This document shows positions 11,102 through 17,167 of a stretch of DNA of 38,068 bases, in pieces (positions within the stretch are counted from its first letter, which is position 1; each line of letters starts with the position of its first letter). The position numbers and the translations under genes were made by a program. Below the pieces are notes generated by a model. It saw only the letters and a list, made by a program, of their open reading frames with translations. It was not told where the DNA came from and did no database searches. Source of the DNA: Planctomyces sp. (GTDB lineage: Bacteria; Planctomycetota; Planctomycetia; Planctomycetales; Planctomycetaceae); NCBI GenBank assembly GCA_027483145.1, contig JAIXVG010000563.1, forward strand, positions 1 through 38,068. Reading direction: 5' to 3'.

Positions 11102-11188
11102 CAAGCGAATCTCAACAGCACAGGTTAGTCGCCGCAAGATCATGTCTCTCACTTGCGAATCACTACACTACCCAAAGCCATTCTCGTG

Positions 11189-12133
11189 ATGCAGTACAAC
11201 TATCTGGGAATGGACGAAGCGGGGCTAGGCCCAAACCTGGGTCCGCTGGTTCACGCGATCGTCGGGCTATCTCTCCCTTCTCCGGCTGCGATCGACCAAC
11301 TTTGGAACTCTCTAAAGCCCGTCATCTCGGCCGCCCCTCCTGCGTCGCTGCATCAGTTGCATGTGGCCGACTCCAAGGTGGTTTACACTGCTGGCGGTTC
11401 TCGCGAACCTCTCGAACGAGCAGTCGCCGTGGTGCTGAGGCATTTGGGTTATCAGCCTCGAACCGTAGCTGAACTCCTTACAGCGGTTCGCGCTACGTCG
11501 GCTCCTGCGTCGGAGCCTTGGTTCACAGATATCGAATTTCCGCTAGCCGGTTGGTGGTCCGATCAACTGACTGTCGACCTCGCGGCTGACCTTGGCCAGC
11601 AACTGGCTAGCAACAAAATCGAAGTCTTTCTAGTAGCCGCCCGAATAACCTGGACCTCCGACTTTAACGCATTCCTGGAAAGCTCCGGCAACAAGGCCGA
11701 AGTAACATCGTCGCAAGCCATGTCGCTATTGAAGACCAGTTGGCCCGATGCCGAAGCCCTGCCCACTTTGTTGGTCGCCGACAAGCATGGTGGCCGCAAT
11801 CGTTACGATGGGCTTCTCTCGCTCGCCTATCCCGGCCTGTTCGTAACGCGAGAGCAAGAGACCGCTCTCCTCAGTCGTTATCACCTGGGCAACATGGAAG
11901 CCCGGTTTCAACCACGGGCCGAGTCCCATTTCCCCGTCGCACTCTCGTCAATGATTTGCAAAACCTTGCGAGAGCTATTGATGGAAGCCTGGAACAGTTG
12001 GTGGGGGAGTCGTATTCCCGGTATCAAACCGACCAAAGGCTATCCCGTCGATGCCAAACGCTTCGCCGCCGACTCGGCCAACTTTCGAGCAGCAAATTAC
12101 ATCGCCGATAAACACTTTTGGCGTGCTAAATAG
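11189..12133 (+). CDS. Divergent RNase HII-like nuclease
   Basis: This 314-residue protein aligns by eye with the type 2 RNase H fold. It starts with a strand and D9-E10-A-G-L-G-P, followed by G-P-L-V as in RNase HII. It continues with a D61-S-K motif and a strand ending in A-D198-K-H-G-G-R. Then comes R-A-E245-S-H-F-P-V-A-L-S-S-M, which aligns with the family K-A-D-x-x-x-P-V-x-x-A-S segment. Three of four catalytic carboxylates are present as D9, E10 and D198; the fourth is E245 in place of Asp. The 2'-OH-sensing G-R/K-G motif reads G12-L13-G14. It is longer than RNase HII (about 200-230 residues) because of an insert at about residues 90-190. The ATG at 11189 is favoured over a TTG at 11153. 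Whether it cuts RNA-DNA hybrids is unknown. Confidence 0.65.
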   Translation: MQYNYLGMDEAGLGPNLGPLVHAIVGLSLPSPAAIDQLWNSLKPVISAAPPASLHQLHVADSKVVYTAGGSREPLERAVAVVLRHLGYQPRTVAELLTAVRATSAPASEPWFTDIEFPLAGWWSDQLTVDLAADLGQQLASNKIEVFLVAARITWTSDFNAFLESSGNKAEVTSSQAMSLLKTSWPDAEALPTLLVADKHGGRNRYDGLLSLAYPGLFVTREQETALLSRYHLGNMEARFQPRAESHFPVALSSMICKTLRELLMEAWNSWWGSRIPGIKPTKGYPVDAKRFAADSANFRAANYIADKHFWRAK

Positions 12134-12193: not shown

Positions 12194-13357
12194 CTAACCC
12201 GGTAATTCCAGTATCCCCGGAACAAGCACTTCGGCCCCTTTCACAGCAATACTAAGCTGGGGCCAATCGGTGGCCGGCGTCAGCAACTCGGGGCCCTTGG
12301 AAGTAACAAGAACTGTCTCCCCCCCAAGTGCCGTGCCAACCGAAGGATGCCAGAAGACAGGTACCCCAGTACTCAAGCGATATTGGCTTGTCGGTGCCAG
12401 CGAGATCTCTTCGAACGCATATTCTGCGATACAAGCTTGATCGGCGGCTCGCCATTCATCTTCGGCTCCCGCCTTCTCATAGATCCGCCGCACGCGATTC
12501 CAGACTTCGTACAGCTCCCACTCTTCTTGAGAGAAGAACATCCCCGTCGCCAGAATCAGCGACATCTTTTCGAAGTCTGCTTTGAATGCTTCAGGAACCG
12601 GCCCCAACGAAACTGTCCTCGCTGCAGCCACGTGACGTCCCCGAATTCGGGCAACTGCTAAGAGCGTGCAGGTCTTGAACATGGCTGAGTCATCATGCCC
12701 CCAATGCCTGAACCGCTGCCCCCGCCCATCCATCAGCACCTGCAGCCGAACGGGTTGGCCCCCATACTTCAAAATGCGGTGAGCCAATTCCCCTGCCACT
12801 TCGTTCTCGTGACGCCCAGCCACCAGCCCGCGCGCCGTCGCCTCAACCGCATGGGCCACTACCCGCCCCGCATGTCGCACCTGTTCAACGTCGAAGTCGA
12901 CATATGGCAATCGCAGCCCGGTCAATCGCAGTGAAACATCTGTTGTTCCGGCTGCACCGGTATCACTGGCGACACGTCGGCCGCGGCATAAGTCGCCCAG
13001 CAGCACATCACGTGGCTCGTACCAGGGACGCTCTTTGAGTTGGAACCCAAAACCAGCCAAATCAGTTTCAAACAACTGAGCAGTCGCCACATTACTGCAC
13101 ACGACCACACGCGAATCGGGTGTTACAAAAATCGCCGCGCTCGTAGCTGGTCCAAGCCCACGCTGACAATCCGACCCGGCAGTCAGCCAGCTCAGGTTTT
13201 CGGGCTTTTGCAGCAGAATCGCCCCGTAGTTCTCACTCTGCAAAAAGTTAGAAATCTGCCGATGCCGTACCGAAATCTCAGCCACTCGCTGCAAGTCGAC
13301 AGCGGCAAACTCGGATGACGAGACAGGATTTGATCGGTCAATTTCCATAGTTGACAT
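12194..13357 (-). CDS. M24-fold (creatinase/prolidase-like) protein without metal ligands
   Basis: This 387-residue protein has the two-part layout of the M24 family. An N-terminal creatinase-like domain contains N-L-S-W-L-T-A-G and a strand-helix pattern (residues 25-160). A C-terminal pita-bread-like region starts with R-x-A-G-R-V-V-A-H-A-V-E and a G-R-H-E-N-E-V-A-G-E helix (about 175-205) and ends with V-L-V-T-S-K-G-P-E-L-L-T-P. The five metal ligands of active aminopeptidases are not visible. No D-x-G...D-x-x-R-T, H-G-x-G-H or final E-D motif occurs where expected. It may bind but not cut peptides, or use metal-free chemistry like creatinase. The start at 13357 has an AAGGA six bases upstream; a GTG at 13408 would add 17 residues. 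Confidence 0.65.
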   Translation of the reverse strand: MSTMEIDRSNPVSSSEFAAVDLQRVAEISVRHRQISNFLQSENYGAILLQKPENLSWLTAGSDCQRGLGPATSAAIFVTPDSRVVVCSNVATAQLFETDLAGFGFQLKERPWYEPRDVLLGDLCRGRRVASDTGAAGTTDVSLRLTGLRLPYVDFDVEQVRHAGRVVAHAVEATARGLVAGRHENEVAGELAHRILKYGGQPVRLQVLMDGRGQRFRHWGHDDSAMFKTCTLLAVARIRGRHVAAARTVSLGPVPEAFKADFEKMSLILATGMFFSQEEWELYEVWNRVRRIYEKAGAEDEWRAADQACIAEYAFEEISLAPTSQYRLSTGVPVFWHPSVGTALGGETVLVTSKGPELLTPATDWPQLSIAVKGAEVLVPGILELPG

Positions 13358-14013
13358 GGCGATTCCTTGCCCAGGCAGGCAACGTTTGTTTGCTCGACTC
13401 GTCGACACAGTATGCGTACGGGGAAATGCAAAAGCTAACGTGACACCTTAGACCGGGCCTGACCGATCCAGCGATGATCTCGCCTGAATCTTTGATCGTT
13501 GGCATCTTGGGCGCAGATTGTTGAATCGATCGCGGCCAAGCTCACCTGTTTGTGCGTCATGTCTGTTTGAACATCATGACCGTACAGACGCGAGCTTTCC
13601 ACAGAGAACCAGTAGCAGCCGGGGAACCCAAAGACGCCAAACCATCCAGAACGCGACGCAAGAAAATAGGCCGAAGAGACGGTCGGGGCAATCACCAGAA
13701 GATGAGATAAGAAGCTACCGCGATCCACTCCAGCCTCTAAGTGTACCACAAAAAAAGGCGCGCGGCACACCTCGAATTTTTCACCCGGCCAAGCTTCTTA
13801 TGCGCGCCTGTCCACTGCCACTAAACGATTGGCGAGCAATGGTGCGAACCCGGAGGTTCCTCGTCCCCTTAAGCGAATGACAGCTAGCAGCCGCCAATTC
13901 AAACCTCATACGCAGGAACATTTCACCCAGCGAATCAAGGTCCCGACTTCGCCACATGTCGGTTTTGCAGCCACTCCCTGAAATCCATGCTCTCATACGT
14001 AACCAGCAGCTGA
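13358..14013. other. Region without a confident gene
   Basis: These 656 bases lie between two leftward genes. Two minus-strand ORFs (13435-13770, 111 codons; 13781-14017, 78 codons) and one plus-strand ORF (13518-13880) overlap it. None shows a recognisable domain or a good ribosome site. The region could hold decayed coding sequence. A promoter for the M24-like gene should lie near 13360-13430, but none is clear. Confidence 0.4.
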
Positions 14014-16848
14014 TCAATTCCCAGCCCTCAGCCGCAGCGACTTCCAGACCGCGACCTCATAGTTCCAGTCGTTCGAACCGTTCTCAACTACAAGCACGAC
14101 GTTCTGCCCGGCAAAACGACTCAAGTCAACTCGGTGAGTCTCCCAGACCGCGGTTTGCGGGTCGGCTGGTGCCTGAGTCGGAATCAAGACCTCCAAAAAA
14201 CTCTCGCCATTCGCCAAAACCTTCAGGGGCCAGTTATGGCCGGGAAGATGCGAACAAACAATCTCCAGTTCAGTTCGCTGGCCAACCTGCAGTTTAACGC
14301 AATGGACTAACCGCACAGGCTGATTTTGCTCATTCGGGTTGGTCTGCAAAACCCGCTCTTCGCCAAAATGCTCTTTGCCGACCACAACACCAAACCAGGT
14401 CGCGCTCGGCGCAAACGGCTCAATAATCGGAGCCGAATACTGCCCCGCTAGCGAGTACTCACGCTCGTGCACCAGTCGACCAGCCTCCAGCGGTTCTCGC
14501 GGCTTTTGTTGTTCCCGCAGCCAGTGAAACATCTGCGGATGCCGCGCCAGTATCAATCGCGATATCTTGCTTCCCCCTTCATCCCCAGCAGAGAAACGAA
14601 TCGCCGAAATCTCGAACGGCCCAAAATCATCAAACAAGTTTCGTTCAACTCGATGCTTGTCAGTCCCAATGTTTTGACCAAGGACAATCGAAGATGACGT
14701 ATGCCGCCCTTCGATGTAAGAATACGAATTGCGCCAGCCTCGCTCCTCGCGCGGTCCTGCTTGATTCCGATTGCCCTGCCGATAGCGTTTTGTCATTGCC
14801 TGCGAGTCCTTGGTTAAGTCAGCTACGAACTGGCCATGATCGGCAAACTCCAGTTTCATCCAGCTTCCCGCTTCCCCCTGCCACTCATAGTCAACGTAAG
14901 CGTACTGGCCCAGCATCGGTTCCTGACGAATCGCAACCTGCCTCGGTAGCTTTGTTATCCCATCACCCCCCTCCTCCAGCGGAATGACCAATAGCCCCGG
15001 CCGATCAACACTTAACGTCACTCCCCGAAAGTCGAGACTAGCCGTCTCCTTTGTTGGTATGAAGCTCAATTCAACGGTCAGGTTTTCGCCAAGCTCTTCG
15101 GGAATAAACGCCATCAGCGGATCGGGATAGTACGACCCCTCACGCATGCTCACTTCGGCATACAAAAGTGGCCAGCGATTGACCGTCACGCAGGCATGCA
15201 TCGGCTCTTTCAAGTCAGGACCGCATCGAAACGCATTCACCGAAATCCACTTCTCCCCGGGCGCACGACGGATCGTTCGAGTCATCGTCAAGAAGCGATC
15301 CGTTGTACCCAATAGCACCCGACGGCGCTCATCGTTCCAGCGAGTTCTGTCAACAATCGCCTGAGTCGTCATCTTGGCCGCGTCACTCGGAGCGATCTTC
15401 CAGCCTTGTAGCTGCGGCAAAGCAGTTGTTAATGCTCCATTCGCTTTCGCATGCAGCTTCTCGGCCGAAAGCTGAACCTCTGGAGCCAACCAGCAGAACG
15501 TATCTCGAATGTCATACGGGTCTGCATCGACGGGTCGATCGGCGTGCCCCATCTCTGTCTGCAGACTGATTTGTGATTGCCCCTCCGGAAGGTCGAACCA
15601 ACTCGATTGAGTACTAGTCTTGCTCGCACATAGTCCATTCACCTGAAAAAGCTCTGTTTCGCCTCCCGAGCCTACTTCGCCCAACGTCTCTTTTGATGAC
15701 TGGCTCGCAACAACACGGGCATGGCCAAACCCTCCCGGCCCGTGATTTGTCACAAGGCCAACTCCCGTTCGCATTCGCTCGGCCCAGGCTGGAATGGCAA
15801 ACGTGATTTCCGTTGTCCCCATTACTCCAATCCCGAACAGATAGAGCTTATCCCCAACTTCTATTGGTAGTCCTTCAACCGACTGATTGCTGCGCGGAGG
15901 CCAGCCCGCTGCCAGGACCGGCCGACTTTCAACACGGCTCGCATCGCTTAGGTTCAGTCGCATCACATCTGGTTTGGGAAACTCCCAGCACAGAATTTCG
16001 CTAACGCGAGTGAATAACGGATCGACCGACCAAATGGGATGAAGCCAATGCCAGCACTCCTCCAACTTGTTGGCATCACCAAAATGCCGCGCAACAAATG
16101 TATCGGCCGTCGAAGTAAACCTTGCCCCCTTGCTCGAAGTCAGCCTGACAAGACGCCCAGTATGACTTGGAGCCAACCGGGCCAGCCGTTGAACATAACC
16201 TTCCCACGGGTCCTTTTCGGGAAATGAAATTTCTGCAATCTCGGTCCATGGAAACTCTTTGACTCCGCCTGTTTGAAGAAGGGTCAGCGTTCCATCACCC
16301 CAGCGGGCCGCCCGAAAACTAATGATTGCCCCAGTTCGCAAGACCGCGGTTCCGGGAGGTGTCGCCCGATCCCCGCGCGAGTCCCAGACCACACGCCTCA
16401 CATCATCAGCAAAAACCCGAACCGAATTCGGAAATCGACCATCCGGATGGACGCAGTTGACTGCAGGCGAAATGATCAAACAAGGGGCAGTCGCTTCAGA
16501 CGCCTGGTCCGCCTCGGCTGAGTAGCCAATCACTTCCCCTGGCAGACAATCATCCCCTGCAAATTCAACTAATGCCGGCAAATTGCTGACCGGCTTAACA
16601 GTCGTATTGACGACCCATTCCACATGTCGATCAGCCTGCAATAACCCACGTCCATTGAGTGTCGGCTGCGAGCCAACGTCGTGCCAGTTCCGCAGCTCGG
16701 TCCCAGAAATTCGCTCTCCATCGCTGAACTCGGCCACAAATTGATCAGCCCTCGCAGCCGACAAACCGGCAATGCCACAAGCTGCAACCAGCATGAGCGC
16801 TAACCCAACTGGCTGAACTTTCGACAACGCCATTAGCGATCTGTTCAT
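14014..16848 (-). CDS. Large exported protein with NPCBM-like segment
   Basis: This 944-residue protein has a signal peptide (hydrophobic residues 15-32, probable A-R-A cleavage near residue 34). The start at 16848 is chosen because a GAGG lies nine bases upstream and the signal follows directly; a TTG at 16914 would add 22 residues. The first part (about 35-215) is beta-rich, resembling planctomycete domains that read out D-G-x-x-x-x-G at strand turns. A segment at about residues 310-440 (from S-x-S-x-E-G-L-P through G-I-G-V-M-G-T-T-E-I-T-F to G-V-G) resembles the NPCBM/NEW2 carbohydrate-binding fold. The last 150 residues look like another beta-sandwich with an H-R-V-D-L-S-R-F-A-G-Q segment. 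No catalytic motif was recognised. It probably binds polysaccharide outside the cell (inference). Confidence 0.7.
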   Translation of the reverse strand: MNRSLMALSKVQPVGLALMLVAACGIAGLSAARADQFVAEFSDGERISGTELRNWHDVGSQPTLNGRGLLQADRHVEWVVNTTVKPVSNLPALVEFAGDDCLPGEVIGYSAEADQASEATAPCLIISPAVNCVHPDGRFPNSVRVFADDVRRVVWDSRGDRATPPGTAVLRTGAIISFRAARWGDGTLTLLQTGGVKEFPWTEIAEISFPEKDPWEGYVQRLARLAPSHTGRLVRLTSSKGARFTSTADTFVARHFGDANKLEECWHWLHPIWSVDPLFTRVSEILCWEFPKPDVMRLNLSDASRVESRPVLAAGWPPRSNQSVEGLPIEVGDKLYLFGIGVMGTTEITFAIPAWAERMRTGVGLVTNHGPGGFGHARVVASQSSKETLGEVGSGGETELFQVNGLCASKTSTQSSWFDLPEGQSQISLQTEMGHADRPVDADPYDIRDTFCWLAPEVQLSAEKLHAKANGALTTALPQLQGWKIAPSDAAKMTTQAIVDRTRWNDERRRVLLGTTDRFLTMTRTIRRAPGEKWISVNAFRCGPDLKEPMHACVTVNRWPLLYAEVSMREGSYYPDPLMAFIPEELGENLTVELSFIPTKETASLDFRGVTLSVDRPGLLVIPLEEGGDGITKLPRQVAIRQEPMLGQYAYVDYEWQGEAGSWMKLEFADHGQFVADLTKDSQAMTKRYRQGNRNQAGPREERGWRNSYSYIEGRHTSSSIVLGQNIGTDKHRVERNLFDDFGPFEISAIRFSAGDEGGSKISRLILARHPQMFHWLREQQKPREPLEAGRLVHEREYSLAGQYSAPIIEPFAPSATWFGVVVGKEHFGEERVLQTNPNEQNQPVRLVHCVKLQVGQRTELEIVCSHLPGHNWPLKVLANGESFLEVLIPTQAPADPQTAVWETHRVDLSRFAGQNVVLVVENGSNDWNYEVAVWKSLRLRAGN

Positions 16849-17167
16849 TTCCAATATCCTCACCGGGTTCACCAAACTTCCCCGCAGGAATGATTTGCGA
16901 TCAACCAGTCGCAAGTTCCAGAAAATCCCTGGCCATCGCCCTATTTCTCACAATGATCGAGCCAGAATCCCCGTTTTTCAGCACACCATTTGCCTGTGGC
17001 CACGTCTCGGCGGCGAAATCGGTCTTCAAATCGAATTGGCGCAATAAAGCCACTGGCGATACCATCCACCGATAGGAGACTTGAAAGGCCAAAGCTGGCA
17101 GACCAGATTGCCTTCAGGTGAACCTGTTTTCTTGGGTGCGTTCCATTCAGGCGGGAGGGAGTCGACC
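16849..17167. other. Intergenic region between divergent genes
   Basis: These 319 bases separate the leftward exported-protein gene from the rightward ispF. Promoters for both are expected. The ispF ribosome site GGGAGGG lies at 17153-17159. ORFs here in both directions lack domain signal. I saw no clear inverted repeat or operator. Confidence 0.45.

Follow-up and report, generated by a model that had tools for sequence, protein, structure and literature searches.

The gene and its product

The window (the whole stretch of planctomycete DNA that was analysed, 38,068 nucleotides) carries an intact open reading frame of 314 codons, which begins with an ATG at 11189 and whose stop codon ends at 12133.

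11189..12133, forward strand: planctomycete RNase H2-like coding sequence, 314 aa (open reading frame and translation, PF01351 match, AlphaFold2 model and 30-row family alignment)

An in-frame TTG is found upstream at 11153, and the ATG at 11189 is favoured as the start because the alignment of homologues begins at about residue 4–6. With 25.2 bits (E 1.8e-5) the protein just misses the 25.8-bit cut-off of the Pfam RNase_HII model PF01351, and its score of about 18 bits with the NCBIfam RNase HII models is far short of their cut-offs, which are at least 123; the curated cut-offs of TIGR00729 and of the NCBIfam HII models are not reached, and that of PF01351 is passed in 4 of 40 relatives. All 30 homologues in the family alignment (A1) match PF01351, with a best E of 1.8e-13, and a PDB search with the A1 profile gives RNases H2 and H3 with E values down to 2.6e-10, the top match being an RNase H3. 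An AlphaFold2 model was built from 74 sequences (mean pLDDT 94.8, pTM 0.93) and compared with the PDB using Foldseek, and the best 32 matches were all RNases H2 or H3. By this model the protein is of the RNase H2/H3 fold, and the structural comparison that the original prediction had proposed agrees with the family-wide Pfam matches in bearing out the RNase HII-like fold that it had read from the sequence.

The adjoining gene, previously described as AI-2E, does match that family (PF01594). It says little about function because nothing is conserved around the RNase H2-like gene: among 80 homologous loci no other family recurs in more than 16, antisense shadow frames aside. A scan for promoters and terminators gave nothing above chance. 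Also in the window, on the reverse strand, 12194–13408 encodes a product with a weak peptidase M24 match (E 7e-4, below the cut-off), which may be an aminopeptidase-like protein that has diverged or lost its activity, and 14014–16914 encodes a 966-aa protein with an NPCBM/NEW2 domain and no further Pfam match.

Predicted active-site and junction-sensing residues

Residue conservation was counted over 78 family sequences from across Planctomycetota. The following features were located in the window, all on the forward strand.

11213..11233, forward strand: D9-E10-A11-G12-L13-G14-P15, carboxylates 1 and 2 and the GxGP 2'-OH loop, with Leu in place of Arg/Lys (residue counts)
11369..11377, forward strand: D61-S62-K63, the DSK motif, 78/78, co-aligned with the DSK of RNases HII and HIII
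11438..11563, forward strand: main insertion, about residues 84–125, with invariant W111; absent from RNase HII and HIII (alignment, span counts)
11780..11806, forward strand: D198-K-H-G-G-R203-N-R-Y206, carboxylate 3 and a family-specific signature (residue counts, alignment)
11921..11923, forward strand: E245, carboxylate 4, Glu in 55 and Asp in 23 family members; aligned with the Asp of RNase HII and the Glu of RNase HIII
11960..11974, forward strand: K258-x-x-R261-E262, by alignment the phosphate-contacting Lys and a GRG-bracing Arg, 78/78; T. maritima K138 and R141 (roles: PMC3025331)
12038..12052, forward strand: G284-Y285-P-V-D288, by alignment the junction-sensing Tyr (T. maritima Y163); G284, Y285 and D288 78/78
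12122..12124, forward strand: R312, aligned with the second GRG-bracing Arg (T. maritima R182), 78/78

In the alignment to Thermotoga maritima RNase H2, D9, E10, G12, G14 and D198 correspond to D18, E19, G21, G23 and D107, while E245, K258, R261, Y285 and R312 correspond to D124, K138, R141, Y163 and R182, the last of these pairs resting on sequence alignment only. D9, E10, A11, G12 and P15 are invariant and G14 is found in 76 of the 78 sequences; D198 is present in 77, R203 in 76 and Y206 in all. The D-E-D-(D/E) active site of the RNase H fold is thus present in the sequences, the model and the alignment, and all four carboxylates are retained, with a single exception at D198, in proteins that share merely 30–40% identity overall. 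The junction Tyr in a G-Y pair and the GxG glycines, which are features of type-2 RNases H, are likewise present. The arginine of the RNase HII GRG motif is absent throughout: position 13 is Tyr in 52 sequences, Leu in 22, Phe in 3 and Val in 1 (in 79 named genome records, Tyr 64, Leu 11 and Phe 4).

The two substitutions singled out by the original prediction, Leu at residue 13 and Glu245 as the fourth carboxylate, are both as stated, and the observation holds in essentials across the phylum, the fourth position alternating between Glu (55), as in the DEDE site of RNase HIII, and Asp (23). Arg or Lys at residue 13 of close homologues, which that prediction had named as evidence against itself, occurs in 0 of 78. 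The roughly 100-residue insertion that it placed between the two halves of the protein is real, and proved to be smaller and split. The span from DSK to carboxylate 3 has a median of 137 residues in the family (115–153), compared with 65–68 in RNase HIII and about 60 in the alignment to E. coli RNase HII, for a net insertion of about 70 residues by span counts. The extra sequence comes in pieces. About 15 residues precede DSK; the largest piece, which carries W111 (78/78), separates the DSK helix from the strand at 145–154; and the segment between 198 and 245 is longer. Both the insertion and the DKHGGRxxY signature could redirect the enzyme.

Distribution and RNase H gene content

The genome from which the window comes (4.96 Mb, 89% complete) encodes one RNase HI, and no second PF01351 match was found in it; the absence of any other rnhB was half of a further case that the original prediction had raised against its own reading. 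The protein is present in 37 of 40 relatives, including 33 of 33 high-quality genomes, and no strong PF01351 match other than the family itself was found in those 40. In a wider sample of 294 genomes across Planctomycetota, with the family scored by the A1 profile, 289 gave a match. Two of these matches (G043 and G065) are weak; the strong PF01351 genes in these two genomes are ordinary RNases HII above the TIGR00729 cut-off, and both genomes are without the planctomycete family. Once they are removed, the family is present in about 287 of the 294 genomes, as a rule in single copy, and the other 5 genomes without it are drafts of 90–94% completeness. The search for a co-occurring normal rnhB that had been suggested therefore returns ordinary RNase HII in 2 of 294 genomes, neither of which has the family, and one exception, G199, in which the family stands beside a bacterial-type RNase HII-like gene. 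This gene (L243, G199:C21:13300-14800) has Leu for the GRG Arg (DEVGLGPLAGP), keeps GY and HRxS, and is possibly of phage origin.

RNase HI was found in 219 and RNase HIII in 65 of the 294 genomes. Both occur in 17, RNase HIII only in 48, RNase HI only in 202 and neither in 27, an anti-association with a Fisher p of 1e-21, uncorrected for kinship; the counts were tallied by hand from tables, and because members of the phylum are related they are not independent. Most bacteria have been found to combine RNase HII with either RNase HI or RNase HIII, and in the same survey the one planctomycete genome then available scored RNase HI alone and was placed in group E (Kochiwa et al. 2007, PMC1950709). 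With the family constant and RNases HI and HIII exchanging around it, gene content places the family in the RNase HII position, and the anti-association supports this placement because it mirrors that in genomes with ordinary RNase HII (PMC1950709).

Strong PF01351 matches in other planctomycetes were considered as coexisting ordinary RNases HII and rejected, since their N-terminal domain shows them to be RNase HIII; the extra matches in G072 (L245) and G088 (L244) were likewise rejected, being larger proteins without the GY tyrosine. The latter two have an RNase HII-like domain with GTGNAGH, and the taxonomic family in which they occur also carries the planctomycete RNase H2-like protein. RNase HIII (L157–L184) is common in some planctomycete lineages (65/294), while a 2022 review places rnhC in few, mostly host-associated microbes. 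Two further RNase HIII-like proteins of one family (L247 and L248, in G184 and G293; DESGKGE) have scores well short of the rnhC cut-off and seem to be degenerate or truncated.

Among named genomes, the best 80 loci are all titled Planctomycetota or its members; these were found with the alignment as query, the window protein alone giving no match among the named-genome contigs. Viral contigs, plasmids and phages gave no homologue, and no archaeal RNase HII was found on plasmids. A literature search found no paper describing the family.

Phylogeny and comparison with known RNases H

In a maximum-likelihood tree built from 217 columns of 76 sequences, three clades are well supported, the planctomycete family (100/99), RNase HIII (100/94) and RNase HII (100/97); the tree is unrooted, with long branches, few RNases HII and HIII and bootstrap values that are not fully settled. 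The planctomycete family is a separate clade from both; it does not group with RNase HII, from which it is divided by a branch of 1.6 changes per column, and an unrooted tree is silent on the closest pair. The planctomycete branch that had been suggested is thus a phylum-wide clade of its own.

The family resembles RNase HII (rnhB; PF01351, TIGR00729) in its fold, four carboxylates, DSK, GxG glycines, GY Tyr, GxGP Pro and two bracing arginines, and its role in the genome is probably the same. Unlike RNase HII, it lacks the GxG Arg, has Glu or Asp as carboxylate 4, carries about 70 extra residues with W111 and the DKHGGRxxY signature, and forms its own clade below the curated cut-offs. With RNase HIII (rnhC; TIGR00716) it shares the catalytic fold, a Glu as carboxylate 4 in most members, tolerance of a non-Arg GxG and a [YF]N motif, but it has no N-terminal TBP-like hybrid-binding domain, the DEAG motif starting at residue 9, it has the junction Tyr (78/78) and Pro of RNase H2, and in many genomes it is found beside a genuine RNase HIII. 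RNase HI (rnhA; PF00075) belongs to the same RNase H-fold superfamily but is a different family, encoded by a separate gene in the window's genome.

Functional interpretation

Given the altered loop and fourth carboxylate, the roles of the equivalent residues in known enzymes were compared. T. maritima RNase H2 contacts the 2'-OH through the main-chain amides of G21-R22-G23 and the Y163 hydroxyl, and the side chain of R22 merely lies along the minor groove (PMC3025331). The RNase H3 motif is written GXG, the glycines alone being strictly conserved (PMC4132731), and the sequence of Bst RNase HIII has GTG. These cases do not support the premise of the original prediction that Arg/Lys is essential for recognition of RNA. 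Glu as carboxylate 4 is already known from RNase HIII, whose motif is DEDE (PMC9719913). Leu13 and Glu245 alone therefore predict no new substrate. Changing both the junction Tyr and the Pro after GRG gives RNase H2 an RNase H1-like preference (PMC4132731); P15 and Y285 are the counterparts of this pair, and both are kept in the planctomycete family.

A change of substrate, in which the altered GxG loop and the insert direct the protein to another nucleic acid or structure, would fit the aromatic or aliphatic residue found at position 13 throughout, the approximately 70 added residues, among them the conserved W111, and the DKHGGRxxY signature. The step from altered residues to a different substrate is nevertheless a weak one, since the GxG glycines, Y285, P15, R261 and R312 are retained, the backbone amides and Tyr that sense the 2'-OH are among the parts kept, Bst RNase HIII itself has GTG, and gene content puts the family in the RNase HII slot; we regard this reading as quite improbable, and the evidence on the family does not require it. 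That the protein is instead an RNase HIII-type, hybrid-degrading enzyme also appears quite unlikely. Its carboxylate 4 is often Glu, it shares the [YF]N motif and an A-E-x(n)-A-x-A-S block with that type, and its top PDB profile match is an RNase H3, yet the N-terminal hybrid-binding domain is missing, both the junction Tyr and the Pro are of RNase H2 type, and the clade is separate. Moreover, genuine RNase HIII stands alongside it in 65 genomes and RNase HI in most others, so that the task of degrading hybrids is already taken.

That the protein resembles characterised RNases HII so little might suggest a remnant without catalytic activity or a protein with a structural role, but the near-complete retention of four carboxylates in 78 sequences at 30–40% identity makes this very improbable indeed. 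An unlikely reading is that of a distinct prokaryotic RNase H class ranking with HII and HIII, which arose or was fixed in Planctomycetota and would have its own substrate range through the aromatic GxG and the W111 segment, for example RNA–DNA junctions within a given structure or complex.

The protein is probably a planctomycete type-2 RNase H, serving as the phylum's RNase HII and predicted to nick DNA at RNA–DNA junctions, and the family is most likely a diverged, so far unnamed version of RNase HII. The exclusion between the family and ordinary RNase HII is supported by two genomes, and G199 has the family together with an RNase HII-like gene. From conservation, the model and gene content we infer catalytic activity, substrate and cell role as follows. 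The enzyme would bind duplex DNA containing a ribonucleotide, or an RNA–DNA junction, from the minor-groove side; the 2'-OH of the ribonucleotide at the junction is predicted to be recognised by the backbone amides of G12-x13-G14 together with the hydroxyl of Y285, a residue that would also stack on the deoxyribose that follows. The four carboxylates (D9, E10, D198 and E245) are predicted to bind a pair of metal ions for a cut 5' of the ribonucleotide, and this cut may start ribonucleotide excision and trim RNA primers. The protein would thereby take the RNase HII slot, beside RNase HI or RNase HIII.

RNase HII is near-universal in bacteria. Nearly all members of the phylum appear instead to have an enzyme in strongly diverged form, which curated models overlook. 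If the reading as RNase HII is right, a missing part of what is known of ribonucleotide repair is supplied, as Planctomycetota seem to clear ribonucleotides from DNA by their own version of the enzyme. The family would then also serve as a natural experiment on the importance of the GRG arginine, and as a third lineage in which to study how a type-2 RNase H comes to prefer junctions to hybrids.
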